64,000 nt of DNA, from positions 5,817,815-5,881,814 of the forward strand of contig CM057161.1 of assembly GCA_029962745.1 (NCBI GenBank). The letters are read 5' to 3'. The notes under the pieces are model-generated. The model worked only from the letters and a program-made list of their open reading frames with translations. It did not search any database and had not been told where the DNA came from. This DNA is from Echinometra lucunter (Eukaryota > Echinodermata > Echinoidea > Camarodonta > Echinometridae). The position numbers and the translations under genes are program-made. Of this stretch, positions 11,301 to 51,584 are shown piece after piece; positions within the stretch are counted from its first letter, which is position 1; every line of letters begins with the position of its first letter.

Positions 11301-11304
11301 ACCG

Positions 11305-11560
11305 ATGTGTTGGCTCAGTAGGTAGAGCGTCCGCCTCACAATCGGGAGGTCGCGGGTTCGAACCCCGGCCGCGTCATACCAAAAGACGTTAAAAGATGGG
11401 AGTTGCTGCTACCTTCTTTGGCGTTCAAGAATTGAAAAGGATAGAGCAACGTCGATCTGGCGCTGCTCAGTGGCTGCTGGGCCCACGATCAATTGGGCAA
11501 AAAAGAATTTCCTTTCTCGGACAATAAAATCTGGAGAGGAGAAATGTATATGAAACAAAA
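11305..11560 (+). mobile_element. tRNA-derived SINE, tRNA-Val(CAC)-like head
   Basis: The head folds as a tRNA: D stem GCTC/GAGC in TGGCTCAGTAGGTAGAGC (A box), an anticodon loop CTCACAA giving CAC (Val), and GGGTTCGAACCCC (B box and T loop). The acceptor stem has G-T wobbles and one T-C mismatch, the anticodon stem has a C-T mismatch and the T stem a G-G mismatch, so this is a retroposed tRNA-like promoter rather than a working tRNA. An unrelated body of about 180 bp follows (ACGTTAAAAGATGGGAG through AATAAAATCTGGAG). A SINE relies on Pol III and a partner LINE; the partner is unknown. The 3' limit is uncertain. Confidence 0.75.
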
Positions 11561-12035
11561 CCCATTGTCATTCTGCTAAAAAATTCGTAATATTCCAACA
11601 ACAGAAAGATTGCCAAAGAATACAAAAGCTCCACAAATTGATTTCCATCCCAACCAGCCTACTTCCTCTAGCTATCCAAGTTAAAATGAATAATTGAGAT
11701 CTGAAGGATGGATGCTTCCAAAATTTCCTTTGTTAATGTATTCTGATTTTACTGAATATACACCATCATTTTTCATTTTTCATGATGGCTGACCAAAAAA
11801 ATGTTTCCTTGGCATGTGGCTTGTAAATTGAGACCTGAACGGCTTGAAACATTGTGCACGGAAATGATTGATTATGTCACGTTTGTATGAAGACTTCAAA
11901 TTTCCAGATGGGTTGATTTGGATCTTGCTATTTTTATAAACCTCTTGAATTTTAGTATATGTGTGTGCTTTTTTTTTTTTTCTTCTTCTTTCTTTCTTTC
12001 TTTTATAGGTTGCTCTTTTTACTTGTACTTGTAAT

Positions 12036-15000
12036 ATGTCATTCCAACTACCTACATTTAATTTTGATTTGAAAGATTTGCTAGAATCATGTAATGATGG
12101 AGCTAATGATACATGTAACTTTGACACAGCTCTAATGAATAATATAGTAGACAAAGATACAGAGTATTATTCACCTGATCAACTTAATAACGAAATTTCA
12201 TTACTGGATAAGCAATATATATCATTAATGCATATGAATTGTCGCAGTCTCAACAGAAATTTTGATACTATGTCTGAATTTCTAGATTTGTTGAAGTGTA
12301 AATTTGACTTTATTCTGGTCAGCGAAACATGGCTTTCGAGAGGTCCAGATTGTCTGTTGTCACTTAGTGGTTATGAATACTACGGGAAAGGGCGACCATC
12401 CCGTGGAGGAGGTGTTGGGATATATGCCAAAACTACATTTCATGTTAAGGAAAGACCAGATTTATCTGTATTTAACGAAAATATTGAATCTTATTTCATT
12501 GAGGTAGCTCATAGTAATGGTAAAAACCTGATCATTGCAGCAATTTATAGACCACCTTCTCAAAGCTGTGTTGACTTTATCGCAGATCTTAACAATATTT
12601 TAGAGAAAGTTGGTCGTGAAAACAAGACATGCTACTTTTTAGGTGATTTCAATTTAAATTTATTGGACATACACTTTGATCAACATGTCAACTCTTTCTT
12701 GGAAATGGTTTTATCTCACTCTTATGCCCCTCTCATTACCAAGGCAACAAGAATAGTTCAGTCTAGTTCAACTCTTATTGACAACATTTTTGTGAATGAT
12801 ACAAGCCTAGTATTGAAAAGTGGTATATTGCTGGCAGACATCTCAGACCACCTTCCAGTTTTTGTCTTTAGTCGGTCAAAACATAGTGAATGGTTCAAAC
12901 GCAAACCATGCAATAAAATTTATACAAGAGACATGTCTCGCTCAAACTTTGATAAATTTAGGGTTGCCCTGGCTGAGCATTCTTGGGAATATGTGATGCA
13001 TGAAGAGTCATGTGATAAAGCATATGAAGTGTTTCTCAATGAATTTGATATCATACATAACTCTTGTTTTCCTTTGAAAGAGAAGCGTTATCGAAAAAGG
13101 GAATCTAAACCATGGATTACTACAGCAATTTTAAAATCATGTAAGAAAAAAATAATGTTATACAAAAATATTTAAAGAACCCTTCTGCATACAGGAAAAA
13201 GGTATACCGAAAGTATCGAAATACTTTAACGACAATTATTAGAAAATCAAAGGAATCTTATTATGCAAAGCAGTTCGAAGAGAGTAGTTGCAGTAAACGG
13301 ACTTGGAATATTATTAATAACATCTTGAATAGAGGGGAAAAGAGAAAGGAACAAGTTTGTTTTTGTGGTGAAAATAATAAAAAACTTATAGATCCCATTG
13401 ACATAGCAAACAAGTTCAATGAATATTTCATAAGTATTGGGACAACGTTTACAGATACAAGTAATATTGACTTGCTAAAGTGTAGGTATTATATGGAGGG
13501 TCAGTATCAACAATCAATGTTTCTAAAACCAATAAAAGGTCATAAAATCCTAGATATTGTGAAGGCATTGAAAATTGGTAAGAGTCCTGGTCATGATAAC
13601 ATTACTGTTTCTGTCATCAAAGAATCAATAAATTTTATTGTTGCTCCACTAGTACATATTTTCAATCTTTCCCTCTCCACTGGTAAATTTCCTCACAGTA
13701 TGAAGCTGGCAAGAGTGACTCCGATCTATAAGAAGGGCTCTCTCGATCAATTTTGTAATTATAGGCCGGTGTCCCTCTTGCCTGTTTTCTCTAAAATATT
13801 AGAAAAACTGTTTTATTCTCGATTGTTGTCTTATATTGAGAAACAAGGGATATTGTCAAACTTTCAGTATGGTTTTAGATCTGGTCATTCAACTATACTG
13901 GCTTTGACATACTTTTTGGACCAGATATTTACTTCTCTTGATGAAAGCAAACATTCAGTATGTCTGTCATTGGATATCTCTAAGCTTTTGACTCAATTAA
14001 TCACCAAGTTTTATTATCCAAGTTGGAATATTATGGTGTGAGAGGTTTAACATTACAGTGGATAGAGGATTACTTAAAGGAAAGAAAGCAATATGTTGTT
14101 TATAATGATGTAACTTCATCTGAAAAAGAACTGATATGCGGGGTACCCCAAGGGTCCATATTGGGGCCACTGTTGTTTATTCTATATATTAATGACTTGC
14201 CAAATGCTTCCTCAACTTTGTCATACATTCTGTTTGCAGATGACACTAATGTCTTTTTAAGCGAGAAGAAACTAGATATTCTTATCGATAATATGAATAA
14301 AGAAATACAAAATGTTAACACATGGTATAAAGTGAATGGTTTAAGGATTAACACAGAGAAAACTAATTTTATGCATTTTGCTCCATTGAATAAGCAATAT
14401 GATAAAAAATTACTTACTCTTAAGTTTGCTAATTCACAAGAGCCTTTAAAGCAAGTACATAGTAATCGCTTCTTAGGAGTCACTATTGATGACAAGTTAT
14501 CATGGTTGATGCATATTAATGACATTGCACTGAAGATTTCGAGAATTATCGGAGTAATGTCAAAATTGAAGTTCGTGTTACCATCAAAGATACTCCTTCT
14601 ACTCTACAATTCATTAATTTTACCTCATTTACAATATGGTAATATGTTATGGATTAATGCATCGAACACTTTGTTAAATCGTTTACATTTGTTGCAAAAA
14701 CGTGTAATACGCATAGTTGCTAAATCTCATTATTTGGCCCATACCAACAATCTGTTCAAACAATTTAGGGTTCTGACTGTATATGAATTAAGTAAGTTAC
14801 AATTGGGAGAATTCATGTACAGGTCTGAAAAGGGGTTATTGCCCAACTCATTCCAGAACTGGTTTAGATGTAACAGTGATGTACATCATCACAATACCCG
14901 AAACTCTAAGAAGCTGCATAGTATTTATTACAGGACTGCTATTGGTCAAAAAAGTGTCAAATATCAGGGTTACCTTACATGGTCTGCTTTAGATGACAGT

Positions 15001-15069
15001 ATCAAACAATCTGCATCGTTACGACAGTTTAAGTTAAAATATAAAAAGTATCTTTGTCATTCTAAATAG
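12036..15069 (+). pseudogene. LINE endonuclease/reverse transcriptase with two 1-base frameshifts
   Basis: Endonuclease (about residues 60-290): LMHMNCRSLNRN, SETWL (metal-binding Glu), AIYRPPSQ, LGDFNLN and SDHLPV (catalytic Asp-His). Reverse transcriptase: RVTPIYKKGS, NYRPVSLLPVFSKILEKL, QYGFRSGHST, LSLDISK, then GVPQGSILGPLLFILYIND and FADDTNVF (catalytic Asp pair), GLRINTEKTNFM. One base appears lost near 13168 (frame shifts from ending 13175 to running through 14041) and another near 13983, just before the first catalytic Asp motif; otherwise the frames are open. About 1,010 codons in total, normal for ORF2 of this group. The ATG at 12036 is the first in frame. It is probably a recently inactivated copy, or an active one with two sequencing errors. 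Confidence 0.9.
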
Positions 15070-16083: not shown

Positions 16084-16446
16084 GCCCACATTATGCTCTC
16101 TTCTTCTCCCCCTTTTCTTGTATATTTCTATGTAAATTCATGTGTTTTTATTGTTTTATGTGTTTGAATTTGTGATTTATATTGTATTTGTATAATTTTC
16201 TGATTTTTAATGTGGAAATCAATAAAATGAAATGAAATGAAAAATTTTTGACTTACTTTCTTCATTTTTTTCTCCTACATCCATTTGGACTGTACAGATT
16301 ATTTACAAAACAATTTACATTATACACCTGTAAACACAAAACAATGATAGGCCATGGGCTAGTGGGGGTCATAGTGCACCCCCGGTGTGACTTACGGAAA
16401 TGGTTATTTTCATGTAGCCCTAGGTCTAACGATTCAGAAAATTGAT

Positions 16447-18141
16447 GTTGCCAGCAAAAAAACTGGGATGGAAGATACCCCCCATGGACTTTTTGACCAC
16501 GCCCACTTTTACAGCTGATTGTAGAAAATTAGGGGTATTGATAGTTTGTAACTGCTCTAACTTTGCAATTCTTCACATATATATGTTGTATGACCCCTTA
16601 AAATGTCGGTCTAATTGAGTTCTACAAGTTTGTGCTGCGTTTTATGCAAATTTTTATGGTGAAAAGGTCACCAGAGGTCAAAAGGTCACAAATTTTGACC
16701 TTTATCTCTTTAAAATAGAGCAAATGCAGGGATTTTTTTATTACAAAGACCCTATAACAAATTTTTTTCATTGAAATTTGATTAAAATTGAAAGTTACAT
16801 ATGTCCAATCATGTTTTTATTCAATACCAGAAAGTTAATGTTGCCAGTCAAAAAACTGGGATGGCAGATGCCCCCATGACCACGCCCACTTTTACAGCTG
16901 GTTGTAGAAATTTAGGGGTATAGATAGTTTGTAACTGCTCTTACTTTGCAATTCTTCAGAAATATATATCATATGACCCCTTAAAATCTCGGCCTAATTG
17001 AGTTCTACAGGTTTGTGCTGCATTTTATGCAAATTTTTATGGTGAAAAGGTCACCAGAGGTCAAAAGGTCATAAATTTTGACTTTATATCTCCAATATAG
17101 AGCAAATGCACAGATTTTTTTATCAGAAAGACCCTATATCAATTTTTTTTTTCATTGAAATTTGATTAAAATTGAAAGTTACATATGTCCAATCATGTGC
17201 TTATTTAATACCAGAAAGTTAATGTTGCCAGTGAAAAAATTGGGATGGAAGATACCCCCATGACCACGCCCACTTTTACAGCTGGTTGTAGAAATTTAGG
17301 GGTATAGATAGTTTGTAACTGCTCTTACTTTGCAATTCTTCAGAAATATATATCATATGACCCCTTAAAATCTCGGCCTAATTGAGTTCTACAGGTTTGT
17401 GCTGCGTTTTATGCAAATTTTTATGGTGAAAAGGTCACCAGAGGTCAAAAGGTCATAAATTTTGACTTTATATCTCCAATATAGAGCAAATGCACAGATT
17501 TTTTTATCAGAAAGACCCTATATCAATTTTTTTTTTCATTGAAATTTGATTAAAATTGAAAGTTACATATGTCCAATCATGTGCTTATTTAATACCAGAA
17601 AGTTAATGTTGCCAGTGAAAAAATTGGGATGGAAGATACCCCCATGACCACACCCACTTTTACAGCTGGTTGTAGAAATTTAGGGGTATAGATAGTTTGT
17701 AACTGCTGTATGTTTGCAATTCTTCAGAAATATATATTATATGACCCCTTAAAATGTTGGCATAATTGAGCTCAACAAGTTTGTGCTGCATTTTATGCAA
17801 ATATCTTTATGATTAAAAGGTCACCAGAGGTCAAAAGGTCACAAATTTTGACCTTTATATCTCCAATATAGAGCAAATGCACGGATTTTTTTATCACAAA
17901 GACCCTACAGCAATTTTTTTTCATTGAAATTTGATTAAAATTGAAAGTTACACATGTCCAAGCATGTTTTTATTCAATACCAGAAAGTTAATGTTGCCAG
18001 TGAAAAAACTGGGATGGAAGATACCCCCATGACCACACCCACTTTTACAGCTGGTTGTAGAAATTTAGGGGTATAGATAGTTTGTAACTGCTGTACGTTT
18101 GCAATTCTTCAGAAATATATATCATATGACCCCTTAAAATG
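16447..18141 (+). repeat. Left-arm tandem repeat, 4.4 units of ~385 bp
   Basis: Each unit holds, in order, TGTTGCCAG, AAACTGGGATGGAAGATACC, CCACGCCCACTTTTACAGCT (CCACACCC in inner units), TTAGGGGTATAGATAGTTTG, TATGACCCCTTAAAAT, GTTTGTGCTGC, the AGGTCA cluster, GCAAATGCA and TTGATTAAAATTGAAAGTTA. Units 2 and 3 are almost identical. The last breaks at CCCCTTAAAATG, where the inversion begins. Confidence 0.9.
16665..16701 (+). promoter_or_regulatory. Nuclear-receptor half-site cluster (example; repeated in other units)
   Basis: AGGTCA at 16665-16670, 16675-16680 and 16683-16688, then TGACCT at 16696-16701. Spacings are 4 and 2 bases (DR4, DR2) and an inverted pair with 7 bases. Equivalent clusters occur in left units near 17050, 17433 and 17818 and in right units near 18505, 18890, 19275, 19660 and 20045, some with a degraded fourth site. 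AGGTCA is the canonical half-site of many nuclear receptors. Function is inferred from sequence only. Confidence 0.4.
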
Positions 18142-18216
18142 ACCTCTGGTGACCTTTTTACCATAAAGATATTTGCATAAAATGCAGCACAAACTTGTTG
18201 AGCTCAATTATGCCAA

Positions 18217-20290
18217 CATTTTAAGGGGTCATATGATATATATTTCTGAAGAATTACAAACGTACAGCAGTTACAAACTATCTATACCCTTAAATTTCTA
18301 CAACCAGCTGTAAAAGTGGGTGTGGTCATGGGGGTATCTTCCATCCCAGTTTTTTGACTGGCAACATTAACTTTCTGGTATTACATAAGCACATGACTGG
18401 ATATATGTAACATTCAATTTTAATCAAATTTCAATAAAAAAAAAATTGTTATAGGGTCTTTGTGATAAAAAAATCCCTGCATTTGCTCTATATTGGAGAT
18501 ATAAAGGTCAAAATTTGTGACCTTTTGACCTCTGGTGACCTTTTCACCATAAGGATATTTGCATAAAATGCAGCACAAACTTGTTGAGCTCAATTATGCC
18601 AACATTTTAAGGGGTCATATGATATATATTTCTGAAGAGTTGCAAAGTTAGAGCAGTTACAAACTATCTATACCCCTAAATTTCTACAACCAGCTGTAAA
18701 AGTGGGTGTGGTCATGGGGGTATCTTCCATCCCAAATTTTTGACTGGCAAAATTAACTTTCTGGTATTAAATAAGCACATGACTGGACATATGTAACATT
18801 CAATTTTAATCAAATTTCAATTAAAAAAAATTGTTACAGGGTCTTTGTGATAAAAAAATCCCTGCATTTGCTCTATATTGGAGATATAAAGGTCAAAATT
18901 TGTGACCTTTTGACCTCTGGTGACCTTTTCACCATAAGGATATTTGCATAAAATGCAGCACAAACTTGTTGAGCTCAATTATGCCAACATTTTAAGGGGT
19001 CATATAATATACATTTCTGAAGAATTGCAAACGTACAGCAGTTACAAACTATCTATACCCCTAAATTTCTACAACCAGCTGTAAAAGTGGGTGTGGTCAT
19101 GGGGGTATCTTCCATCCCAGTTTTTTGACTGGCAACATTAACTTTCTGGTATTAAATAAGCACATGACTGGACATATGTAACATTCAATTTTAATCAAAT
19201 TTCAATTAAAAAAAATTGTTACAGGGTCTTTGTGATAAAAAAATCCCTGCATTTGCTCTATATTGGAGATATAAAGGTCAAAATTTGTGACCTTTTGACC
19301 TCTGGTGACCTTTTCACCATAAGGATATTTGCATAAAATGCAGCACAAACTTGTTGAGCTCAATTATGCCAACATTTTAAGGGGTCATATAATATATATT
19401 TCTGAAGAATTGCAAACGTACAGCAGTTACAAACTATCTATACCCCTAAATTTCTACAACCAGCTGTAAAAGTGGGCGTGGTCATGGGGGTATCTTCCAT
19501 CCCAGTTTTTTGACTGGCAACATTAACTTTCGGGTATTAAATAAGCACATGATTGGACATATGTAACTTTCAATTTTAATGAAATTTCAATGAAAAAAAA
19601 ATTGCTATAGGGTCTTTCTGATAAAAAAATCCGTGCATTTGTTCTATATTGGAGATATAAAGGTCAAAATTTGTGACCTTTTGACCTCTGGTGACCTTTT
19701 CACCATAAAAATTTGCATAAAACGCAGCACAAACCTGTAGAACTCAATTAGGCCGAGATTTTAAGGGGTCATATGATATATATTTCTGAAGAATTGCAAA
19801 GTAAGAGCAGTTACAAACTATCTATACCCCTAAATTTCTACAACCAGCTGTAAAAGTGGGCGTGGTCATGGGGGCATCTGCCATCCCAGTTTTTTGACTG
19901 GCAACATTAACTTTCTGGTATTGAATAAAAACATGATTGGACATATGTAACTTTCAATTTTAATCAAATTTCAATGAAAAAAATTTGTTATAGGGTCTTT
20001 GTAATAAAAAAATCCCTGCATTGCTCTATTTTAAAGAGATAAAGGTCAAAATTTGTGACCTTTTGACCTCTGGTGACCTTTTCACCATAAAAATTTGCAT
20101 ATAAACGCAGCACAAACTTGTAGAACTCAATTAGACCGACATTTTAAGGGGTCATACAACATATATATGTGAAGAATTGCAAAGTTAGAGCAGTTACAAA
20201 CTATCAATACCCCTAATTTTCTACAATCAGCTGTAAAAGTGGGCGTGGTCAAAAAGTCCATGGGGGGTATCTTCCATCCCAGTTTTTTTG
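18217..20290 (-). repeat. Right-arm tandem repeat, ~5.4 units in inverse orientation
   Basis: The same unit as the left arm, reverse-complemented, beginning CATTTTAAGGGG at 18217. Inner units carry GGGTGTGGTCAT and outer units GGGCGTGGTCAT, mirroring the CCACACCC/CCACGCCC order of the left arm. Confidence 0.9.
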
Positions 20291-20520
20291 CTGGCAACAT
20301 CAATTTTCTGAATCGTTAGACCTAGGGCTACATGAAAATAACCATTTCCGTAAGTCACACCGGGGGTGCACTATGACCCCCACTAGCCCATGGCCTATGA
20401 AGATAAGTTTTTGTTTCAATTACTGATTGATTAATATGCACTGGAATATTTACTGAAGGCATGCTTCATAAATAGTTTTGAGGATTACAAGAAAAGCATG
20501 GGAAATATGCTCATAATTAC

Positions 20521-22009
20521 AGTGTGTCCCAGAATAAACGAAACCGAGACTGATCGATGTTTAATCATATCTTAATCACAGTTATGATTAATAAGTGGCA
20601 CATCTTTGTAAATCTTAAACCCTCTTCTTTCATGCGATGTCACTCATATTATATATATTTCACGTGTGAGTGAATAAAGACAATGTGAAGTTGGGTAACC
20701 AAAAATTCGTTTGACCAACGATGTTTGAATTTCAAAGAGATAATCACATTTCTAGAAAGTTCATTTTCTGCCCTTTCGTTTGACACCTCAATCGGGAAAA
20801 ATGAACCAGGAATGACAGAGATAACTTAAATTGAAATATTGATTGCATTTCCTAGATTTTAAATCATTTGTATCTTAACTTCTCACCAATTGTTCGCGCA
20901 AATTATTCGCACGAATGGATGCGGAGATGGTCACGAGTGATCTAAAAACTTTCGTTTAGAGACTCCTCCTATGCCACTCTCCTCATCTTCATTGCCCATC
21001 ACCACCCCACCCCACCCCACCCCCATCCCCAATCCCTCCCGGAACCCAAACTCTACAATCCTCCAAGTTCCCATCTCCCTTCCTCGTTATGCACGTGTGA
21101 TGCTGTGTGTATTGTGTTGGTCGTTTGTTCTTTTGATGGATAGATTTAAGAAACAACTTTGCATAACCAATAAATTGCATGTTAAAACTCATCCCTCCCA
21201 CCTCCTCATCCCCACCCCATCCTTAACCCCACTCGAAACTCCAAATCATTAACTATTCACCCCTCACACTTCCTCTCGCTCCCTCTGTATGCGTGTTTGT
21301 GTTGATGTTATGGTCGTTTGTTCATCTAATAAACTTATTTAGTCAAATATCACTGCATAGCTGTCAACGCTTAAAGAATTAATTTCTTTCCGTAAAAGCT
21401 ATTCATGAATTGAACCAGACATGACACTGCTAGACAGAACATGCAGAAACAACATCAGCAACTCTCAGAAGGCTCTCGAGCTCAGAACGTCCCTATTTTG
21501 CAACTAGAAACACTCATTGATTAGTCTGTTGTTAACTGCAATATGAATTATGTTAATAAAAGCCTACTTCATTATTAATCAGCTGTTATCATTTTTGTCA
21601 CTCCATTTTCTTGATGATCAACCATGCATGAAGTCTTTTATCTTCTTTGTTCACTGCTAGGACAGGCAGCGAATGCAAAGGGATTCATGTAATAAATCAT
21701 GGAAATGCAAGCAGTAATATTAAAGAACAGTGAATGAACTGTTCAGAAGTATATTTTCATATCACAGTAACAGAAATATTTTCATATCTATCTCTTTGAA
21801 TCTGAGGTATGGTTGTGCGAAGGACTTTTTGGTAGCCCTTCTTCATATAATTCTAATTCACTCATGCGTGAAGTATGTAGCATATGAGTGGTATCTAATG
21901 AAAAAGAGGGTCTAAGCTTTACAAATATGTATTAGTTATTAATCATAATTGTGATAAAGATATGAATAAAAATCGATACATCTCGGTTTCATTATTTCTG
22001 GGACACACT
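20521..22009. mobile_element. 1.49-kb DNA element with ~170-bp terminal inverted repeats
   Basis: The left end AGTGTGTCCCAGAATAAACG is matched in inverse by CATTATTTCTGGGACACACT at the right. Similarity continues about 170 bp inward through ATTATGATTAATAA, CCCTCTT and a CACTCAT/GAGTGAAT block. The interior has no transposase; it holds a two-copy CCCCACC-rich duplication (about 20985-21200 and 21190-21345, each followed by GGTCGTTTGTTC). No flanking duplication could be fixed, so the superfamily is open. Confidence 0.75.
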
Positions 22010-25842: not shown

Positions 25843-26668
25843 TAATGATTGTGTTAATCTGGTTACTTTCGGTACGATATCTCTTGGTGAACAGCGTATA
25901 CCTATATTCTGACCTGAAATCACTATATTCTGATAAAATAGATTATTACCTCCTTTTTTCTTGATCATGATACCGTCTTAAATCTCGAGAGAGTTTTCCA
26001 AAGTGCCTCCGATCCGAGAAATTGATCCAAGAAGTTTGTATTCATTTCTGGAGTGGAGAAGAACAGAAAATGCTTATTATCTTGAAGATGAGATGCCATC
26101 AACACGCTGATCTTTTCGACGTCAGCATATAGAGCACATGTCCAAAATCCTAGCCCATTTACCTATTTACATTATTGTTTAGCCACATCTGGCACGCAGA
26201 AAGGATTTAGATATAAAGGTTACAGGATCAGTCTAGGAGTTCTTGCGACGGATCTCTTTAGGTAGTCCGCAACGATAGCCTTTCAAGGTTGTTGTAAAAT
26301 CGGATTTTTAAAGATCATGTAAACTTGAGTTTTGGTCATGTGATTACAATGATAAATAACCTACGAAATTCTCAAAATAATTTGAAAGGTTGACTGAGTA
26401 GTTGATAAACCTTCATGATGAGTACCCTGAGGTTTCGAAATCCTCGTAAGGACAAGAATCAACCAAATCTTGTTGAAAAATAGCTGCTGTGCATTGCACA
26501 CAGAAATTGGTATAAGGGACTACATACAAATTTTCTGGCCGAACACTCAATAAGTTTCTTGCTATATTGCTATAATCATGTCAAACATGTCAAATAACGG
26601 GAATTTGAAGAGTAATCCTTTTCAGGGTTTTCTTGCAAAGTGACATAAAGAAGACTGATGAACCTCAA
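25843..26668. other. Unassigned sequence
   Basis: No gene or repeat recognised. Confidence 0.4.
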
Positions 26669-26673
26669 AATTC

Positions 26674-26917
26674 TATGGTGGCCCTGAAGTACGCTCAACA
26701 ACAGGTCATGTGTGACGTGAATTTTGCGGCCAATGGACGCAAAATTCGCGACCCGGGACACGAATTTTGTGTCCCAGTGGCGAAATTCGCAACCCGGGAC
26801 ACGAACTTTGTGTCCCAGTCGCAAAATTTCGCAACTGGGAGGCAGTGATTGCGCCCATTGGCCGCAAAATTCGCGGCGTACATGACCTGTAGTCGAGCGT
26901 CCTTCAGGGCCACCATA
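26674..26917. mobile_element. Foldback element A, 21-bp palindromic repeat family
   Basis: The ends TATGGTGGCCCTGAAG and CTTCAGGGCCACCATA are inverted and the arms match for ~65 bp. The core is a 21-bp-period repeat: AAAATTCGCGACCCGGGACAC, GAATTTTGTGTCCCAGTGGCG and AAATTCGCAACCCGGGACACG in register, each alternating an AAATT-centred and a CCCGGG-centred palindrome. AATTC lies just outside both ends (26669-26673 and 26919-26923), a candidate target duplication. ORFs across it show a 7-residue period (NFAANGR, NFVSQSQ, NFATGRQ) purely because 21 bp is seven codons. Confidence 0.8.
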
Positions 26918-26923
26918 CAATTC

Positions 26924-27470
26924 ATCTTCACCTCCTCCCAGAACTCAAGCTTCCCTTAAAACAAATCACTCTAAGTAAACACTCAAATCACTTACCATGC
27001 TTACAGTGAAAACTATTGCACAGTCATGAGCAAGAAAACCATCGGGGGAAAGGGGTGAAGAAGATTTATGCTCCGCTCACAGCATATTTCTTATGTTGAT
27101 CATATTTCGTTGATTGCGTCGCATGCCCACGTGGAGGGTGAGTTCTTTTATAGATCCGCACGTTGGGAACATAATCAATTACAGGCCCATTTAGGCAAAG
27201 GCAAGTGCCGTGACGCGAGTATCATTATTATGATGTATGTTTGCATTATTAAAGAAAAAACAACAACAGAAAGTGGGTCGGATACACATTTCAGTGTATG
27301 TGCTCGCTGTTGAATGTGAGAGTTTTTTTCATTCACGGTTTAAGTAATACTGGGTGTGGTAGAAGTGGTAGTGCAGTGGTGGTGGTTGTGGTGGTGATGA
27401 TAGTTGAGGTATTGATAGTGGTAGTGTTATAGTGGTGGCAGTATTAGCAGAGACCGTAGAAAAAAACCAT
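26924..27470. other. Unassigned; GGT/GTG-rich at right
   Basis: No gene supported. 27350-27440 is a GTGGT-rich imperfect repeat that leads into the next microsatellite. Confidence 0.4.
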
Positions 27471-36884: not shown

Positions 36885-38031
36885 TAATCTGTACTGCTGT
36901 ATGGAGCTGAGACATGGCCACTGACAGTACAACAAGAAAAAGTTCTTGATGGACTATATACTCGTCTACTGAGAATAGCCCTGAGCGTTTCTGGAAGGAC
37001 CGTGTAAGAAACACAGATCTCTACGCAGGCCTGCCAAAACTGTCTGACAAACTACGTGCTAGAAGGTTGAGGTTAGCAGGGCACAATGTTGTATGGTGGC
37101 CCTGAAGTACGCTCGATGACAGGCCATGTGCGACGCAAACTTCACGACCTAGGCGAGAAATTGGCGATCTCAGTCACCAGTTTCGTGACCCAAGACCTGA
37201 AATTCATGTCCCGGGACCCGAAATTCGTGACCCGAGGCGCGAACTTTGCGACAAGGGTTGCAAACTTCACGCCCTGTAGTCGCGAAATTCGTGATTTGGG
37301 TCCTGAATTTCACTGACTTTGGGTCGCAAACTTTGCGACTTAGGTCGCATATTTGACGACCTAGGGTCGTGAATTTTTTGTACATGTCTGAGCGGCCATG
37401 TGTTGACAGCTGACACAAAGTCACACACGTGCACTACAGACATGCACGTGCTCATCGTATACTACACAGGATATTCACATCCTTCGTACTCGCACCGCTC
37501 AGCCATATAAAAAAAATTCACGACCCTAGGTCGTCAAATATGCGACCTAAGTCGCACAGTTTGCGACCCAAAGTCATGAAATTTAAGACCCAAAGTCACG
37601 AATTTCGCGACTACAAGGCGTGAAGTTTGCAACCCTTGTCGCAAAGTTCGCGCTTCGGGTCACGAATTTCCGGTCCCGGGACATGAATTTCAGGTCGTGG
37701 GTCACGAAATTGGTGACCGAGATCGCCAATTTCTCGTCTAGGTCGTGAAGTTTGCGTCGCACATGGCCTGTCCTCGAGCGTACTTCAGGTTCGTCATCCA
37801 GAACTCCCTCCGAGCCCACTCATTCTTTGGGAGCCATTTCAGGGCAAAAGAGGCAAACGTGGTAGAAAGCAGACTAACTACATCAGCATGTTAAAGAGAG
37901 ACACAGGTCTAGACAGTGTTGGGGAACTCAAGACTGCCAGGCTGGACAGACTGGCTTGGAGGGGATACATTCATGGTGCCCGTGAAGACATTGGCTAATT
38001 CAGCCTATGTTCTCCTCGACCTAGTAGTAGT
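36885..38031 (+). pseudogene. 5'-truncated LINE, RT C-terminal region, with 11-bp target duplication
   Basis: Left part translates LLYGAETWPLTVQQEKVLDG, TRLLRIALSVSW (one frameshift), LPKLSDKLRARRLRLAGH; right part, after an inserted element, LWEPFQGKRGKRGRKQTNY, ISMLKRDTGLDSVGELKTAR, LDRLAWRGYIHGAREDIG and a stop. These are standard C-terminal phrases of invertebrate non-LTR reverse transcriptases. ATGCTAGGTTC flanks it at 36874-36884 and 38032-38042, and the 3' end is a short TAG repeat, as expected of target-primed reverse transcription. Confidence 0.85.
37092..37797. mobile_element. Foldback element B, 21-bp palindromic repeat family
   Basis: Arms of ~300 bp (37092-37385 and 37508-37797) are inverted and share the terminal phrase TGGCCCTGAAGTACGCTCG with element A (the extreme right end has drifted). 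Each arm is a chain of about eleven 21-bp units in perfect register, for example AAATTCATGTCCCGGGACCCG, AAATTCGTGACCCGAGGCGCG and AACTTTGCGACAAGGGTTGCA. A ~120-bp unique centre holds GACATGCACGTGC. It lies inside the LINE reading frame between RLRLAGH and LWEPFQG. Confidence 0.85.
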
Positions 38032-38352
38032 ATGCTAGGTTCCCACTGCCGATACGATCAACTCGACTGTCCCAATCTCTCAAAACCTAGTCTGCAAAAA
38101 CAGACATAATTATGACACCTGAACACAATTCCATGAGGCTGTGAATGAGCCTACCCATGGCAGTCTCTATTACAGTCAAATAATTTGAAACCGCAAGTGA
38201 CTTGCCATAACTAGGCTCATTCAGGGCTTCATGGAATTGTTGTATTCAAGTGTGAAAATAATGTCTGTTTTTGCAGACTAGGTTTTGAGAGATCGGGACA
38301 ATCGAGTTGATCGGATCGGCAGTGGGAACCCACCATTAAGGTCACGAGAGAC

Positions 38353-38354
<2 letters not shown>

Positions 38355-38388
<34 letters not shown>
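38355..38388 (+). repeat. (GA)n microsatellite (copy 2 at 51587-51622)
   Basis: A perfect GA repeat; copy 2 is slightly longer. Confidence 0.9.
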
Positions 38389-38389
<1 letters not shown>

Positions 38390-38390
<1 letters not shown>

Positions 38391-40870
38391 ACGAACGTAG
38401 TAGTTTTGTTCCAAAACATGGTACGTGGTATGTTCATAGATTCATAACGGTGAATAGTTTATTATAATTCCATCTGGATTTTTTCAAATTGAAAGACTAA
38501 GGAAGGGTTTAATTTTTCAAGAAAATATACATGATGCTCATTGAACATGCTGAATAGAGACTTTGCAGAAGCATCTTGAAATTTGGCAAAGTGTCTAACG
38601 GGGAGTGAGAAGGGGATGGGGGATGGGGTCCAACATTGGAAATCATCAACGCTAGGTTAAAAAAAAGGTCGGGTGCCCAGGCCTTCTCAATCCCTCTTCA
38701 ACGAGCCCTAAAATGTCGTTGACATAAGCTGCATCTATATTTTGAACCTATCCCATCCCATGGGATACTCGAGGCATCAACAAAGTACTGCTACGCTATT
38801 ACCTTGACTTATTCTAAGCTGCCTGATGGCTCTTGAAGCGTTCAAGGAGATATTGCTTACCAGGTACGTTTGTACTTACCTTGCGAAGTGTGACAAATGT
38901 AGATTAATCAGATAACGTCTGGAAAGTCGCGGACACCAATGCCTCGGCTAAATCTTGAAAGAGAAACCTTTCTTTGATGAACAGTCCTGGGTTGTAGCAC
39001 TGGACCACGACTCCTCATTCGGAAGCGCCCAATGCGTAAGACGCCATTAATCGTGAAAAAGGGGCTTACCGGCCAACTTCGGTGTTAAGAAGTAAGCAAA
39101 TCATACGCCAGTGTGCTCAGATTCCCAACGTAATAGTCTGTTTAACGATATTATCTTCCGACCACCTAATCTGTCAAAATACCGAACAGAAAGAAAGAAA
39201 TAGATGACTCCTTACAGCGATTGATGGTAAGAGGGACGCTCCATCGTTCTTATGACCGGGAAAGTAATTTATTGTCACTTTTTACACTGTTTCTTGGTTG
39301 AATTTATAACAGATGTGTTTAATTTGTCTAATTTGATATTTTTAGTTCTGGAATGGTCTTGTAAGCACGAAGAAACAACAATAAAGAGGAAAACAATGCT
39401 TCACAAAAAACCCCCAAAGATTTGCAAAATATCGGACTGATAATAAAAGTTCTTAAAAGGACGAGACAATCGTACAGCAGTCATATGATTCATCTTAAAC
39501 TCTACATTAGAAATGTTTTACTTTCTATTTACAAGAAACGCAGATGCTAATAGTTTTCGTCAAAGAGGTACATGGCGGACTTGGTTGTGTCAACAATTAT
39601 TTTCTAGGTCCTCACTGAAAAAACCGTCTAGCGTTAAAAATGACCCCCAAACTTTCACTTTTAAAAGCAATATTTATGTCTGATAAGATTTCATGACAAA
39701 TATGTTTATCTATAATCCCTCTTTTTTTTTTATTTTTTTTTTTACTTATCTTTTAAAAGTCTTTAATATCTTAAACTTTACAGTTCATTCTTCGATTTAA
39801 ATTCTTTAAAAAGAAAATCACTTGTGGAAAGCTTGTGGAGCTTGAAGAGTTGAAAACCTGCAAATAAGGCAATAGAGAGTAGGCCCGATGCCTGGGATCT
39901 GTTCCTTCCATTGCCATCATCAATGCTATTTCTGTACATCTCATTGTGAAGTGCAAACCACGATCCACGCCAATTGGTTTTTCTGAGAGGTCTGAAGATT
40001 TATCATAGCACCACATGCCCACAGGCAGTCCTGTCTGAAGTGTCTATTGGTTTTTCATATCCGGAGCGCAAATGAGCCTTTCACGGTCCCACTGGGTAAT
40101 TTTCTTGTCTGGGGTATCTTCCGGTGCTCTAACCAAGATTGCCGTCCCCCGGTGTCTAAGTGCTTCTTAATCGCTCCGGGCCTTTGTCCAGGCTAATATT
40201 TGTTTACATATTAGATTCATGCTGTTATTCCAATCTATGATTAAGTGGAGCTGACACATTATGTTTCCTTTTGAGGCATCTTTCTATTTTTATTTCATTT
40301 GCCCTGTTTATGAAAGTGATTAATTGCTGCCAGTTTTACTGGCATATTACTGAATAGAAAAAAAAAGTATTGATTCCCGAAGTTATCTGGGTAAGAGCGC
40401 CTCGTGAACGAGATGGTAATTTCTTACGAAGGGGTGTCAGTACTTATTTTCCGAAAAGCGATGAAAGTGTAGAACCAAGCTTTATTCTTTGCAGCGATAT
40501 ATGCGAACAATGTAGGAAAATGACAGAACCGATTTAATAAATTGAACACATTTTCTCAAGTAACACAAACATCATAACATGAGCTGGAGAACACGGACTT
40601 AACCAGTCTTTATACTTAGACCCCAATATTAGAATAGACAAAATAGGGTTTCATGCTGGAAATGATATAATAAGCTTTCATTTGCATTACTGCTCCAGAA
40701 AGGGACACAGTGGGACTAACAGCTCTACGCTCATAATTTTAATCTGCTGAGGTTTGAAAATAAGTTTTAATTTCTTCCTCGTTTCAGATTTTCCCTAAAG
40801 GACTACTTAAAATGGTTCAAGATTCGCCGAAGCAGTGTTGCCGAACAACAAGGATTATGGGCTATACATT
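38390..40870. other. Unassigned sequence of copy 1 (copy 2: 51623-54082)
   Basis: No known element. It includes the candidate exon-like ORF at 39771-40022. Copy 1 has 17 extra bases near 38650-38666. Confidence 0.4.
39771..40022 (-). CDS. Exon-like ORF of unknown function (copy 2 at 52986-53237)
   Basis: An 83-residue frame, open back to a TAG just upstream, with balanced composition (for example GVDRGLHFTMRCTEIALMMA). About 380 bp around it is free of indels between the two copies while neighbouring sequence has several. I recognise no family; a chance ORF is at least as likely, and there is no clear splice context. Confidence 0.15.
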   Translation of the reverse strand: MGMWCYDKSSDLSEKPIGVDRGLHFTMRCTEIALMMAMEGTDPRHRAYSLLPYLQVFNSSSSTSFPQVIFFLKNLNRRMNCKV

Positions 40871-41145
40871 GGCGTAAATCCGGGGGGGGGGGGGGAATGG
40901 GGGTGATATATCCCCCCCACTTTTCCTAGGGGGTGTGTACAAACATCCCCCCTCATTTTAAGAAAAAATAAATGATATTGTAATAATCAGTTGGTGATTT
41001 TTTTTTTATAAAAATGTCATTAAAGACGGTCATATCGTGGAATTTTTATTTGAAACACTCTTAAAAACCATAAAAGTGGTCATTTTTCGCTCACTCGCTC
41101 GCAAAATAATAATATAATGTGTGTGGGGGTCTGCGAGGGGTAAAT

Positions 41146-41177
<32 letters not shown>

Positions 41178-41255
41178 ATACTCAAGTGTGAGTTCACGGA
41201 AAAAATTGGCAAAAAAAGGTGATCATCCCTTCACTCCTCAAAACGGATTAACGCC
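40871..41255. mobile_element. GGCGTAAATCC-family MITE, copy 1
   Basis: GGCGTAAATCC at the left and GGATTAACGCC at the right are inverted ends of a 385-bp element. Inside are a G-run of about 14, CCCCCC blocks, one unit equivalent to the 83-bp minisatellite of 4915-5360 (CGCTCACTCGCTCGC core) and a (GT)n at about 41151-41178. Non-coding. Confidence 0.75.
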
Positions 41256-41725
41256 GGTGGGGCTATATCATGTACATGTATATGTAGAACTGCGGTAAAT
41301 TGTAAGATACAACGTAGTTGCTGATCATTCTTTTGAACAATGATATGGTGCACCCCTTTTCTAATACATGAACACGATCTGAATATTTATAACGAATGAG
41401 CCTCTTTTTGCCAAGCTGCTCAAAACCGCAAACATCTTAAAAAACGACTTAGACACTACTGAATTTCTTTTTCCCTCAAAAAGTTAATCAACTCGATCTC
41501 ACAAACTTTTGAGAAATCAACCGATTTCATCACTCCAATGTATATCCCACAGAAATCATATACCGATTTCGTAATACGTATTCTTGAACAGTTCTAGCAT
41601 TTCAAACATGTCAAATGGCGGTAGACAAGGCTGTTGAAGTCGTATTTTATTTTTTTAATAATCGTATTTATCGCAAATTCATCATGCTCATGGCTCATCT
41701 GAACGTGGACTAAAGCATTACTTCA

Positions 41726-41885
41726 GGGGAGCGTTTCATAAACATTTGTTGTCTGACAAGTTGTCAGATCTGACAACTTTCCTTGATTTTGATTGGCTGA
41801 GAAGCATCATTACTATGGTAACTGTCGGATAAAACAGACTTTGTCGGATAAAACATCCGACAAGTCCTTTCATGAAACGCTCCCC
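41726..41885. mobile_element. MITE with GGGGAGCGTTTCAT ends, copy 1
   Basis: A 160-bp element: the left end GGGGAGCGTTTCATAAAC and right end CATGAAACGCTCCCC are inverted, with TCTGACAAG and TCCGACAAG blocks inside. It is 37 bp longer than the same element in copy 2. Confidence 0.85.
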
Positions 41886-43590
41886 AGGATGTTCAGTATT
41901 TCCAAAGAAAGCTGGAAACCTAAAGATTCAAGTGCATGTACGGGTGAATCATTGAAATTTGTAACACTGTGGGTTTAAGCAGCTCTTTAAGGTTTAATAT
42001 TTGAAAATCTCAGCCGTATTATTTCCTGGAAACTTAAGATCCTTTCCTTTTTTTATATAAAGACACTGCTCTTTGACCGTCACTTTTTATTCCAAGCGCC
42101 GCAAGATTAAAATCCTTTAATGACCTTGGTATTTAGCGAGCAAACTGCTCCTCCAAGAAGCTTTCAATCAATAAGGATACTTTGAAACATGATCGTCTGA
42201 GGGCGTGATTAATTACCTGGTGAAAGAGTTGCTTGGTCTACTTGAAACGTCTAACCAAGATTGCTTGCTAGTCAAAACATAAGTGTTTTGGACCTTGTCT
42301 ATACGAATGTTTTTGACCTAGAACTCACGGTAGCAGTAGTATAGCAGAGGTAGTAGTGCTGGTGAGAGTAGTAGTAGTAGTAGTAGCAGCAGAAGTAAAA
42401 GGTTACAAGCAGTACACCTCAGTAGATTACACCGAACAGGGTTTCCTTTTTATGACGCTATACATGTAGCTGTCTCGTTCTTGATACCGCATGCCTCCTT
42501 TCTCATCAGTAAAGCGTACTCAGTGCCACACTGTATGGACAGCGAAATGTCATTTCATTTGGCTGTCCACCCACTGGAAATCTAGGTGTAATATGAAACT
42601 AGGCGAGAGGTCTCCTATATCTTGAAAAAAGGGAAAAATCAAAATAAATAACAAACAAATAAGATTTGGGGAGTCAGTCTCAACAGGCAATCCGTTTAGG
42701 CCATTCATGTTCACATATGAAGATGAAAAGACGTTGGTAATACTTAAGGCAAACTTCAACTGAAATGTTCTCTGTACATGTCCTTGGTGAGTGAATATTC
42801 AAGACTGGAGGATTTCAGTAACACCATGTGGTAATCTTTAATAGTAAAAGGCTGTTGACATTTGTTTTTCCCAAAACATCCAACTTTTGATAAATAAATT
42901 ATTGATAGAGAATGAAAATAAATAAAAGTAAGGAAAGATAATGGTGGAATTAATTTTGTAAGAACATTTCCACAATACTATTTTTTGACTTTCATTTTCA
43001 GTGTTTGAGGTAAATCAAGGTGAAATACAAAAAAAAAAAAAAAAAAATGTGGAAAGAAGAGTGACTGATGTCAGAAAATTTGTAAGCAATTCTAGAAAGT
43101 TTGAAGAAGTTAGTTCTGAAAAGGCCTGTTGGTATTTCTCCAGTCAAAGGGGTAGTTCTGAAAAGAGGCTTTGGACTTCTTTCGGTAAAGCAGTATATCT
43201 GTTTCGACGCGTTTCGAACAGTATGCGCTGTTCATCATCGGGATATAAACCCTCTATTCCTGTAAACGTCCTACAGGTGGGCTCTTTTGGTAAAAGCATA
43301 GCTATATCATCAGGCTAAGGCTTCCACGTGGTGAATACCGAAAGCCTATAATTTTGAAAGTTTCAACAGTGCACCTATGCTTACCGATCCGAAAGTTGAC
43401 TTCAAGTACTTAATACTCATCCTAATTAGCACCTTATTTAGGTTTGAGAAAATATAATAAGTATTTTGCTCTTGTCCAGGAGAGAAGTTTGGTATATTTT
43501 CCGGAACTCTTTATCTTTTCACTGATATAAAGTCATGAACGTTAAAGTTATAAAGTAACACCTACCAGCCTACGTAAAATACCGGAATAG
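41886..43590. other. Unassigned sequence of copy 1 (copy 2: 55058-56750)
   Basis: Holds an AGT/TAG repeat at 42340-42395 and an A-run at 43029-43048. The 69-residue minus ORF at 42550-42759 is identical in copy 2 but unrecognised. The frame at 43001-43318 contains two partial repeats of GTTCTGAAAAGG and the hairpin motif described under findings (43194-43247). Confidence 0.4.
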
Positions 43591-44824
43591 TCGGTTTGAC
43601 AGTCCTATTTAACTAACAGTGTAACCTAGAAAAGTTCTTTCCGTTGAAGTTTTTTGGCTGATTTATAATCCTAAGTGGTCTATGAACATTTTCAGCTTGG
43701 TTGCCTAAACAGCAACTTTGAGCAATTTGCATAATTTGCATAAATCTGTATTACAGCGCAAAGACAACCTGCACAGAATGTTCAAACTGAATTACGTGCT
43801 AATTGTGTATGTGCGCTGATACGGAACTACGAGATATGGATGCACATCCAATTAATTAGGGGTTTGTGAGACATGGAAATCATTTCAGTGTTATTTTTAC
43901 AATTAAAAATCACGCTTTTGTACTAAGAATCATGTTGATATCAACTTGATATCTATAAACAACTGTGATTGTACTTTTTTGCACCTAGAATGAGAGTAGG
44001 CCTGCTCCTAATGAACAGGTATTAATGTGCGCTAGCAGGTTGGCAGCCTTCTTGTATTGTTTTAGTTCCTTTTGGGGTACCTCTTCGTGTAATGTTGGCC
44101 GTATGGATTAAATCAACGTTATTTCAACACCCTAACACCACAAATATGTTTCCAATTCAATTGTAAATTTCAAAAACATGTTTTTTCTAAAATATGATAC
44201 GATTGTTGCAGTCATATAAGGTGCATAATTATGGGCATATGTATCTATTCAATTATAAGACTTTGTATTTTTTTTAAAGCTAGAGCCCAAATATTTTCAA
44301 CCATTGATATGTGCTTCTGTGCGTGAACGCTACTTAAGCCCGTTTTTTCAAAGGATGGGCCTAAACGAAGGATATTTACCGCTGTTAGTACCATTCTTAA
44401 TGATTGTAAGACTAAGGTTTAAATCATTTAAATAACGAAGTTGACATTTCCTTGATTTTCAGTACTAAACCCTGACCTGTAATTGCAAAAATATGTTAAA
44501 ACTTTATTCTACATCCCTACAAAACACATCAGTGTACCCCGTTTCGTTTTATCAAAGGCTGAATTCACAAGATTGACAACGCTATTAAAGTTCCGTAACA
44601 CCACACATACACAATTAGTACGTAGATAAGTTTACACAATCTGTGTAAGTTATCTTGGGTGGCATATCCTGTATCCATACAGATTTATTCAAATTATGCA
44701 AATTGCTCAAGGTTGCTGTTTGGGCAACCAAGTTGAAAATATTCATAAACCACATAGGAGCCTAAATCAATGAAAAAACTTCAACGGAAAGAACCTTTCT
44801 AGGCTTGTAAATTGTCAAACCGAC
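43591..44824. mobile_element. 1.2-kb foldback-type element with ~250-bp inverted arms, copy 1
   Basis: The left arm (from TCGGTTTGACAG, through TTCTTTCCGTTGAAGTTTTT, CAGCAACTTTGAGCAATTTG, and GCTAATTGTGTATGTG) is repeated in inverse at about 44570-44824 (CACATACACAATTAGTACG, CAAATTGCTCAAGGTTGCTG, AAACTTCAACGGAAAGAA). No ORF inside. The ends are fuzzy and no target duplication is set. Confidence 0.7.
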
Positions 44825-45216
44825 CAGAATGCTTAATGTTCTTGCAGGCACTTATCTGTCAGTTGCGTGGTTGATTTGCTTTTGTGGCTGCAGCTGATGG
44901 TGGGGCGGGTAAATACCGTGCAAGAATGGCAATCTTTCGTGCACCAGCTACATAGCATTGCGTGTCTCTCCTTTTGCTTCTGTTTATTTTTTCAACAACG
45001 ATAACAATAGCAAAAAGGGACATTAAAGTGCTTTTCTCTCGCAATGTACCGCATGGAGGTTGAGAAAGCTTAGCGACTTATTTCTTCCGGGGTTTCCTGT
45101 CCATGGGGCCGGTCCACGCACCAGAGTCAAATCGTCGTTCCTTCTTCACCCTCTCTGTCTTCTGCCTCCCTCTTCATCTTGTGTTGATTAAAGTCACGTG
45201 TACGTTCAGACACCAT

Positions 45217-46744
45217 GGCCCGTATTCACAAAGGTGTACTAAGTTAAACATGTTAAACCGTGGTTTAAATCAGTGGTCTAATTATGGGTAGCCAAATGTA
45301 ACACAAATCTCTAACAGTTTTATCAGCATTTTTGGTACTCACACTATTGAAAACTGCCTAGGAATGATAAGTACAGTAATTTTCTTGACCACTGAAGCAT
45401 GAGACCAGAAGTCTAGTAAACATAAGGAACATAACAGCATAGACAAATTTGTTACATTTGGCTACCCATCGTTAAGCCACAGATTTAAACTAAGGTTTAA
45501 GTTACTACATCTTTAAAAAAAAATATTTGTATGTTTTATTGAATCATAAAACCAACAATAAGAAAAATTACAATATTTACAAATAATTACAACAGATCAG
45601 GATATTGTAACAAACAAACAAGATAGAAAAACCGAGTATAAAAAAAGAGGGCAGAAAAACTGTGGACAATACAATACTGTACAGTTGCTTAATACATGTA
45701 GGGGAATTCCCCAAAAGACTCCATAATTATCTTAAGGCTGTGCCATAGAGTCCTATACAAAATTAAAAAAAAAAAAACCCAGATCTTTATGAGCATAAAT
45801 AAACCAAACTAATAACATGTACTATACATGCAAAAGAATTTCTATCATGCAACCACATTATAGACCCATATATACGTTTCCAAAGATTAGGATTACACCT
45901 CAAATTTCCATTTTTTGAAGTGGATGGAAAGTTTGTTTCTTTTCTTGGCCAAATGATATTCCAATTCCAATTCTTCTGTTTCTTGACAAACAATTTAAAT
46001 GCTTCTATGTTTGGTAAGAAATCTTTGAATTTACATATGTATATGAAATATTTCACCAATAAAAATAGATAGGATAAGAATTTATCATTGGGGACTCCAA
46101 AAAGCTTGTCAAAGTTGGTCATGGTAAAATTATAATCATGTTTATGTAATATTACGGTATGCAAATGTTGCCAAATAGGGAAAACTACTTCACAATCACA
46201 AAAAATGTGAAGAATAGTTTCTTCAAATTTACTACAGAAATCACAATTAGGTGAATCCCTCCTTTTAATCTTAAAAAGAAAGTCAGTAAAAGCAATACAT
46301 CTATGAAAAACTTTAAAATAAAAAGAACGAATTTTTGTGTCTATAGAGCATGTAAAATTACAAATATGTAACTTTTCCCAATGAATACTGGGGAGGAAGG
46401 GTTAACTTAGCGTCCCAGAAATCATAATGCTTAATAGGAGACTGTTGACACAGAGAGTATTGTAAGCATAACTGGGTAACTTTTTGATGGCTAATAATTT
46501 ACAATTAACATACATGAATATCAACATTTTCAGAACTAGGATCCAGCCACTCTTCAGGAATACACTTAACTAAGAAATTAAATTTTATTCGATCGGTTCG
46601 AGGTATATTGAAATCCAAGACCAATTCTTCAAATAACTTATGACCAGGAAATGGTGGATTAAGGAAATCAGAAATTGTACCAATATTATTGTTACTCCAG
46701 ATGCCATAATAAAAAAAGTTACTACATCTTTGTGAATAGGGGCC
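45217..46744. mobile_element. MITE (GGCCCGTATTCACAAAG ends) interrupted by a LINE, copy 1
   Basis: The left arm GGCCCGTATTCACAAAGGTG continues through TTAAAC and GGGTAGCCAAATGTAACA; the right arm is its inverse (TGTTACATTTGGCTACCC, AAACTAAGGTTTAAGTTA, CTACATCTTT) and closes with GTGAATAGGGGCC beyond the inserted LINE. Arms are ~85 bp. Confidence 0.8.
45515..46715 (-). pseudogene. 5'-truncated L1/Tx1-type LINE fragment, copy 1
   Basis: AAGTTACTACATCTTT (16 bp) flanks it at 45499-45514 and 46716-46731 as a target-site duplication. The minus strand encodes the C-terminus of an L1/Tx1-type ORF2, including WEKLHICNF, FHRCIAFTDFLFKIKRRDSP and the zinc knuckle CDFC...H...C (C-x2-C-x8-H-x4-C). Frames are broken in this copy. 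The 3' end on the minus strand has AATAAAACATAC. Confidence 0.85.
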
Positions 46745-49700: not shown

Positions 49701-50684
49701 AAAAAGACCCACCAAAATGTAATAAGGGTTATCTTTAAATACAGGATTTTTCGGGGTGGGGGGGAGCGGGCGCCAAAATATTAAACGATATAAGTCTATA
49801 TATGGAATAATCTTTCCGTTTAGCCAAGTTTTAGGTACAGATTCAAAATATTTTATTAAGTTAATTTAAAAGTCATAATTTGTTCAAAATGTTTTATAGT
49901 ATGCGCAAACCTCAGTACGTTACAATATAAATAATTTTTCATGCCTTACGCTTTCATTCTTTAATGGTAGAAATAATTGAAGATTAACAACTAATGATAA
50001 AAACCTTAGAACTAACTATTTTTATAAAATGTACATAAAATTTTTTTGTTGAGGGTACGGGTTGAATCTATGGAGCTTTGGGCATAAGTAATAGCATTAT
50101 TGAAATCACCTCTACACCACTGATGTTAACCAGAGTTCCCCGAGGCAATGTATGCTGGTATATTAACCTACATTGATTATGTTCGAACCTCGCTGATGTG
50201 TTTTGATTAATGGTTAGTTTTGGTATGAAATGAAGTGTTATTGGCAAGAATATCAAACCATGACGCACATTAGCGAAATTGGACTCGGCAGATGAACCAG
50301 AAGTTACGGAGGTAGAGTGATTATGTATAATTATTACGGTAAAGGTAAGATGAATGAAGAAACTAAATTGAACGACCGACCAGAGAGATGTTCCTTTCCT
50401 GTTTACGTCGTGATGGTACATAAAGACACTGCTTAGGGCTTGTACAAGAAAGATAGAAGAGCGAATGGAAAGCTGAGCTGCAGAAAGGAGTCAAAAGGAA
50501 AAGAAAAAAGAAAGGAAATGTAATAGGTAATAACCATTTTGACCCAGGCCTTTCATTTGAAGCCGAACAAGAAGAAAATTTTAAAAAAGTGGTATTCAGT
50601 TTGATCCAGGCTTTCATTTCAAGAAGATGTGTTTTTCTCTGTGCATTTAGAATACTTAAGATGTATTTGTCTGACTGACTAACT
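46745..50684. other. Unassigned sequence of copy 1 (copy 2: 59922-63820)
   Basis: About 4 kb without a known element. It includes the GC-richer candidate ORF at 47308-47649. The 168-residue minus ORF at 48251-48757 is broken in copy 2. A purine-rich patch lies at about 50487-50520. Copy 1 has 11 extra bases near 47231. Confidence 0.4.
47308..47649 (-). CDS. Candidate exon-like ORF, unknown (copy 2 at 60474-60797)
   Basis: A 113-residue minus frame in a stretch less AT-rich than its surroundings; the shared part includes GHIDYVHVLLGTGDYPVIHK. The plus strand is also open here (47377-47613 and, in copy 2, 60543-60818). A single A indel (AAAA against AAA near 47600) changes the N-terminal part between copies. 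I recognise no family. Because both strands are open and one copy shifts frame, coding is uncertain. Confidence 0.2.
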   Translation of the reverse strand: MVIADPCSCAQASTAILVQRRMRTWCSAIHAQHEKQLGGHIDYVHVLLGTGDYPVIHKENDDEVLPLVVFRHIIHIHQYHIWFGKTFAWRHTRDARNLSMFNPSTRKPSQRYL

Positions 50685-50698
50685 TGTCAGGAGAACAA

Positions 50699-50765
50699 GG
50701 ATCTTCATTTGATGAAGATCCCATTCTCTCCATTAGACCAGATTGTCTTCGACATGTTCGAAGAA
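50699..50765. other. Two short adjacent palindromes (copy 2 at about 63847-63912)
   Basis: GGATCTTCAT and ATGAAGATCC flank 3 bases at 50699-50721, and CTTCGA/TTCGAAG pair near 50747-50763. They are conserved in both copies. Role unknown. Confidence 0.4.
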
Positions 50766-51000
50766 AATCTAGGCTCTTCTGCTGTTGCATTTACAGGGTA
50801 CTGACATGCTGTCGTGCTTCGCACCCTTATTCATTCTCCATGACTCCCTTCGCTATTTCCTTTCTCTCTTTCTATACTTCCTGAACATTTCTATTTCTTT
50901 CAATGCCTCTCTTTCCCCTCTTTATTCTCACCTTTTTCATTTCTCATCATCCGTTCTTCTTCTTAGTCTCTCTTCCTCATCACTCCTGACCACTCTCCTC

Positions 51001-51500: not shown

Positions 51501-51584
51501 TTTTTGCAGACTAGGTTTTGAGAGATCGGGAAATCGAGTTGATCGGATCGGCAGTGGGAACCCACCATTAAGGTCACGAGAGAC

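Follow-up and report, generated by a model that had tools for sequence, protein, structure and literature searches.

The window analysed here is a 64,000-nucleotide stretch from the sea urchin Echinometra lucunter (contig CM057161.1, positions 5,817,815 to 5,881,814 of the forward strand; part of contig C11 in a host assembly of 743 Mb and 2266 contigs), and it contains a palindrome at 16347-20398 whose inverted arms are built of tandem units. With long inverted arms carrying tandem repeats, dispersal through the genome and no genes, the element is almost certainly a foldback transposon, which supports the reading given in an earlier note made from the sequence alone. We refer to its family as FB1 and to two families with related ends as FB2 and FB3; most likely, FB2 and FB3 are AcademX-type elements and FB1 is a foldback derivative, moved in trans.

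The palindrome and its surroundings

The palindrome of ~385-bp units was confirmed, with inverted arms present, ordinary arm units of 384-386 bp and a first unit of 393 bp; units other than the first have a mutual identity of about 91-99%. The span of 16347..20398 first assigned to it holds for the palindrome but not for the transposon proper, which is 4050 bp long (16348-20397); the A/T pair at the extreme ends is part of a TGA target duplication. The outer ends are as alike as had been claimed, with the outer 296 bp of both arms 100% complementary and the cap plus first unit of the left and right arms aligning with 479 matches, 0 mismatches and 2 gap columns over 481 columns. The second units, L2 and R2, align with 377 matches, 6 mismatches and 2 gap columns over 385. 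A cap is indeed present and identical on the two sides, though its length is 87 bp and not 100 bp, and it is followed by the distinctive first unit. The arms differ in length, as noted before, by about 1.2 units rather than one, based on the copy numbers from Tandem Repeats Finder (left arm, 4.4; right arm, 5.6). From their sequences, the pairs L2/L3 and R3/R4 look like recent tandem duplications (Table 1).

The 75-bp spacer that had been placed at the centre (18142-18216) is not unique DNA; it is right-arm unit sequence without a left partner. The arms join at 18140/18141, with TG common to both unit sequences, and the window copy has none of the 1.2-kb core of the family, its units being joined directly. 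The lack of coding capacity was borne out, the longest stop-to-stop frame being 64 aa. A TGTTGCCAG box is present ~100 bp in from the end and occurs once per unit in the left arm (five in all). Folded as a single strand, the cap gave a z of -1.69, with 13 of 200 shuffles as good.

Upstream of the palindrome is a long interspersed nuclear element (LINE) whose endonuclease and reverse-transcriptase domains lie in frames that overlap (12009-15069), ending, by eye, in an apparent short repeat tail near 16245. Just beyond the right end there is a pair of inverted repeats of ~220 bp, 77% alike (20521-20742 and 21789-22009). Elsewhere, the window contains a minus-strand fragment with a match to the transposase domain HTH_Tnp_Tc3_2 of Tc1 type (863-1345), a tRNA-Val (CAC) gene or tRNA-like repeat (11304-11376), and a 12.7-kb stretch duplicated at 97% (38268-50852 and 51501-64000) that flanks a gap of 500 N (51001-51500) and looks like two haplotypes set in tandem by the assembly.

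Table 1. Features of the FB1 copy in window coordinates, with genome coordinates (contig:position) in the last row.
Feature	Position	Strand	Remark
Left target-site duplication TGA	16345..16347	.	TGA/TGA flanks
Left cap, terminus TAGGCCATGGGCTAG...	16348..16434	+	Same as right cap
Left arm first unit L1	16435..16827	+	393 bp, distinctive
Left arm unit L2	16828..17211	+	
Left arm unit L3	17212..17595	+	98.7% to L2
Left arm unit L4	17596..17980	+	
Left arm partial unit L5	17981..18141	+	Cut at centre
Palindrome centre	18140..18141	.	Direct unit joint, TG shared, without core
Right arm partial unit R6	18140..18377	-	Takes in the 75-bp 'spacer'
Right arm unit R5	18378..18763	-	
Right arm unit R4	18764..19148	-	99.2% to R3
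Right arm unit R3	19149..19533	-	
Right arm unit R2	19534..19917	-	
Right arm first unit R1	19918..20310	-	0 mismatches, 2 gap columns vs L1
Right cap, terminus ...CTAGCCCATGGCCTA	20311..20397	-	
Right target-site duplication TGA	20398..20400	.	
FB3-like transposase and downstream nuclease	C3:32864483, C12:19687851, C33:23737, C615:9098		

The FB1 family in the genome

FB1 is a multi-copy element with fixed ends (TAGGCCATGGGCTAG...) that inserts with a 3-bp duplication. A search of the genome found the cap in multiple copies, and not the single-copy sequence that the earlier note had named as speaking against a foldback. A 19-bp end motif occurs at 359 places (172 + 187) with up to three mismatches, compared to 22 (13 + 9) for the reversed control. 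The end listing comprised 100 of the 359 places, all exact matches, and among these listed matches 78 make 39 facing pairs of 893-12050 bp (median, 5233). Sequences were fetched for 20 places and then for four more copies.

In the usual layout, a cap and first unit precede n units, a core of ~1.2 kb separates these from m inverted units, and the far end again has a first unit and cap. The 16 copies compared, those with both caps among the first 20 places fetched, all have the whole or part of the core, in either orientation; it is missing from the window copy and from two short copies (L040 and L041). The core contains one unit, ~72% diverged, and looks non-coding (longest frame, 89 aa; L016). 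As had been anticipated, copies with the same cap differ in unit number, with 2-15 full units per arm and equal arms in three of the 18 elements for which both were counted. FB1 is, as far as seen, non-autonomous. Three large copies were rejected as autonomous candidates: L009 has about 5 kb extra and no frame >131 aa (threshold, 100 aa), a 12-kb copy on C3 contains a nested FB2, and L039 has 15 units in one arm.

Both the target duplication and the empty site sought in the earlier note were found. The FB1 termini, TAGGCC...GGCCTA, are flanked by identical 3-bp sequences in 20 of 21 two-ended copies (TGA in the window; TAT/TAA in the 21st copy), a count that omits four one-ended copies among the 25. 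TTA accounts for three of the 20 identical duplications and TAA for none. The single empty site comes from L024. Joining its flanks and dropping one TTA gives a sequence that matches an unoccupied repeat in L022, with a single mismatch and a single gap in 121 columns (90% over 791 columns), which shows insertion with a 3-bp duplication.

Units fall into classes by position (first, middle or last), with first and middle units ~90% alike. First units have a mean identity of 98.0% between the arms of one element (18 pairs) and of 96.2% between elements (762 pairs), in line with the suggestion of arms that are young or homogenised by conversion. The closest relative of a first unit is in its own other arm for 14 of 40 and in another element for 26 of 40, the other arm being unavailable for a few of these units; among middle units it is in another element (66 of 111), the same arm (36) or the other arm (9). 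Collectively, these identities and nearest-relative counts indicate that the arms are somewhat coupled and that much of the unit variation is common to different copies.

FB2, FB3 and their coding copies

Within the 12-kb FB1 copy sits another foldback, FB2, which is flanked by CAA/CAA and has an end 78% alike to the FB1 cap over 37 bp. Related ends, searched for with a pattern that leaves out the FB1 end, number 136 (72 + 64; control, 0) and, among the matches listed (100 of the 136), 54 make 27 facing pairs, 13 of them at 6.3-6.5 kb. The ends of FB1 and FB2 are alignable through about 125 bp, to a common CAGAAAA...TGTTKCCAG stretch that is the box found once in each left-arm unit of FB1, and 144 of 248 columns match between FB1 and the end of an FB2 copy on C4. 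FB2 duplications are also of 3 bp, identical in two copies and matching at two of three bases in a third. The inverted arms of FB2 are 2.1 kb long, lack 385-bp units and share about 80% identity in the nested copy (L042, L037). By eye, the middle of the nested copy resembles reverse-transcriptase debris, and degenerate, partly inverted 21-bp repeats at 26664-26927 and 37084-37803 of the window have kin there (L037). The C3 core that received FB2 was rejected as a clean empty-site case, as other cores are ~5 bp longer beside the site.

Coding sequence was reached through a third end type, FB3 (TAGTCCATGGG): two frames, of 392 and 362 aa, with a single stop between them. Over bases 1-11 of the ends, FB1 has one mismatch to FB3 and two to FB2. 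Based on the Repbase terminal rule, as worded in the available text of PMC4455052 (bases 1-11 with no more than one mismatch, and equal duplication length), FB1 agrees with FB3 and disagrees with FB2 when bases 1-11 are taken alone. The end motif also has a subterminal copy in inverted orientation, which is unusual in FB1 (2 of 500 shuffles as good) but not in FB2 (174 of 500) or FB3 (410 of 500), and was for that reason dropped from consideration.

Some copies of FB2 and of FB3 possess a DUF6589-type protein that, from a weak model match, may be RNase H-like; the identities of the transposase and nuclease domains are drawn from models of homologues. The 362-aa FB3 piece had 54 matches in the host genome, merged into 34 transposase loci. 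Six of the 34 lie ≤10 kb from listed FB2/FB3-type ends, against an average of 0.08 and at most two in 2000 random placements, an expectation calculated with approximate sizes for some chromosomes, with small-contig loci unplaced and with 100 of the 136 ends.

Three FB2 copies have an XPG/FEN-like nuclease after the transposase. The element at C4:24667206-24675976, bounded by two FB2 ends and flanked by ATA/ATT, has transposase matches at 24672155-24673167 and then a same-strand nuclease match at 24670064-24671269, with internal stops in both. At C12:512714 and C14:14703014 the two matches occur in this order next to a single end; the remaining three of the six loci (C2:13987823, C12:21008308, and C7:29714703) have no listed nuclease match. 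Four further loci, known without their ends, have nuclease matches downstream of an FB3-like transposase (Table 1), and one open frame of 1595 aa at C16:22242209-22245805, also known without its ends, matches the transposase as well as the nuclease. The second (nuclease) domain went unrecognised by Pfam in the proteins scanned, and a fold model was used for it instead; Foldseek with the transposase model returned no match at E ≤ 0.001, and a sequence search of the PDB gave a best E of 0.65. Three genome matches to PF00867 (XPG_I) were taken as host genes. FB2 pairs of 18 kb and 11.8 kb (14.4 and 7.8 kb read) were rejected as coding copies, having FB2 repeats, a LINE frame and no transposase match. 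The search for an autonomous partner proposed in the earlier note thus yielded possible partners, with caps that are related to that of FB1 and not identical to it.

A candidate driver for FB1

We put at about 0.78 the probability that FB1 is a non-autonomous foldback cut-and-paste transposon moved in trans by an AcademX enzyme of the FB2/FB3 type. AcademX elements carry an XPG-type nuclease. To our knowledge, no foldback Academ elements have been described; a literature search combining Academ with foldback returned none with Academ among the matches listed, and Academ with XPG returned none, and an Academ foldback looks to be undescribed in the searchable literature, Repbase not included. 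In the available text of PMC10045372, AcademX target duplications are 3 or 4 bp and a transposase with a nuclease is the AcademX layout. The 3-bp duplications, the DUF6589-type protein and the nuclease fit AcademX, making FB1 most likely an Academ-type foldback. FB1 resembles Academ and AcademX in its 3-bp duplication and its related-ended relatives with a putative DDE transposase, joined in three FB2 copies by the nuclease, but is itself gene-less, with ~2-kb arms of tandem 385-bp units. Several observations weigh against this assignment: FB1 encodes neither a DDE transposase nor an XPG-type nuclease, a look between FB1 caps (100 listed ends) revealed no transposase, and the sole transposase locus ≤10 kb from those ends is 7.1 kb outside an element. 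With no transposase found inside the FB1 ends, the Academ link, drawn from sequence outside Repbase, is no more than probable.

PIF/Harbinger elements duplicate TWA. It is unlikely that this or another superfamily with 3-bp duplications (Zator, EnSpm) moves FB1 and that FB2 and FB3 are not drivers. The absence of a transposase between FB1 caps would suit such a driver, as would the 3-bp duplications given for Harbinger and EnSpm (PMC12730594) and for Zator (PMC10045372) in the accessible parts of those sources; however, FB1 duplications are not limited to TWA, its ends are TAG..CTA and not CAC..GTG, and the FB1-FB2 alignment extends well past the terminus. As for a Zator-like driver, PF07592 had no matches in the genome, which says little since a 14-genome control was also silent.

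The sea urchin TU and Drosophila FB elements share the foldback design, and to this extent the resemblance proposed in the earlier note stands, but they have short-unit arms and longer target duplications, against 385-bp units and 3 bp in FB1; the 3-bp duplication speaks against a kinship of the Mutator type, as has been proposed for many foldbacks. In the available text of PMC4079207, foldbacks are mostly assigned to Mutator or P relatives, and Tetris of Drosophila virilis, for which a Mutator kinship is proposed, is the closest in design to FB1, with an outer domain, tandem arm units, a variable non-coding middle, a unit number that varies (between alleles in Tetris) and no autonomous partner found there. 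Despite this likeness, it is highly improbable that FB1 is a Mutator-kind foldback moved by a MULE-type transposase: the same text gives Tetris units of ~220 bp, duplications of 8-10 bp and three structurally complete copies, whereas FB1 has 3-bp duplications in 20 of 21 copies, a distinctive first unit unlike Tetris, ends in the hundreds and, in elements with related ends, DUF6589-type protein matches. That the palindrome is a single-locus inverted duplication or an assembly artefact is scarcely credible, and is refuted for the family as a whole, since, hard as palindromes are to assemble and duplicated as the window is around its gap, the structure is repeated at unlinked loci with their own target duplications and one empty site.

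Under the AcademX assignment, an FB2/FB3-type enzyme, comprising a DUF6589-type DDE transposase and an XPG/FEN-like nuclease, would move FB1 in trans, with the repeated 385-bp unit multiplying a subterminal recognition site. Galileo, a member of the P superfamily in the available text of PMC3688188 and in this respect different, has similarly long arms with internal tandem repeats, and its repeated binding sites provide the model for this proposed role of the unit; by analogy, the TGTTGCCAG box is a candidate binding site. Unequal exchange may change the unit number, a deletion may have removed the core from the window copy, and pairing and conversion within an element may partly keep its arms alike. 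A stronger proposal, which we regard as quite doubtful, is that foldback arms arose in the AcademX lineage because its machinery includes an XPG/FEN-like nuclease, such that hairpins or cruciforms extruded from the palindromic arms would be processed by it, units would act as extra recognition sites and long inverted arrays would be favoured and not just tolerated.

Many foldbacks are without a known driver. FB1 points to a third, nuclease-carrying type of transposase for foldbacks, besides the Mutator and P relatives, and the presence in one genome of a gene-less element together with related-ended coding relatives makes testable both what drives foldbacks and what role the tandem arm units have.
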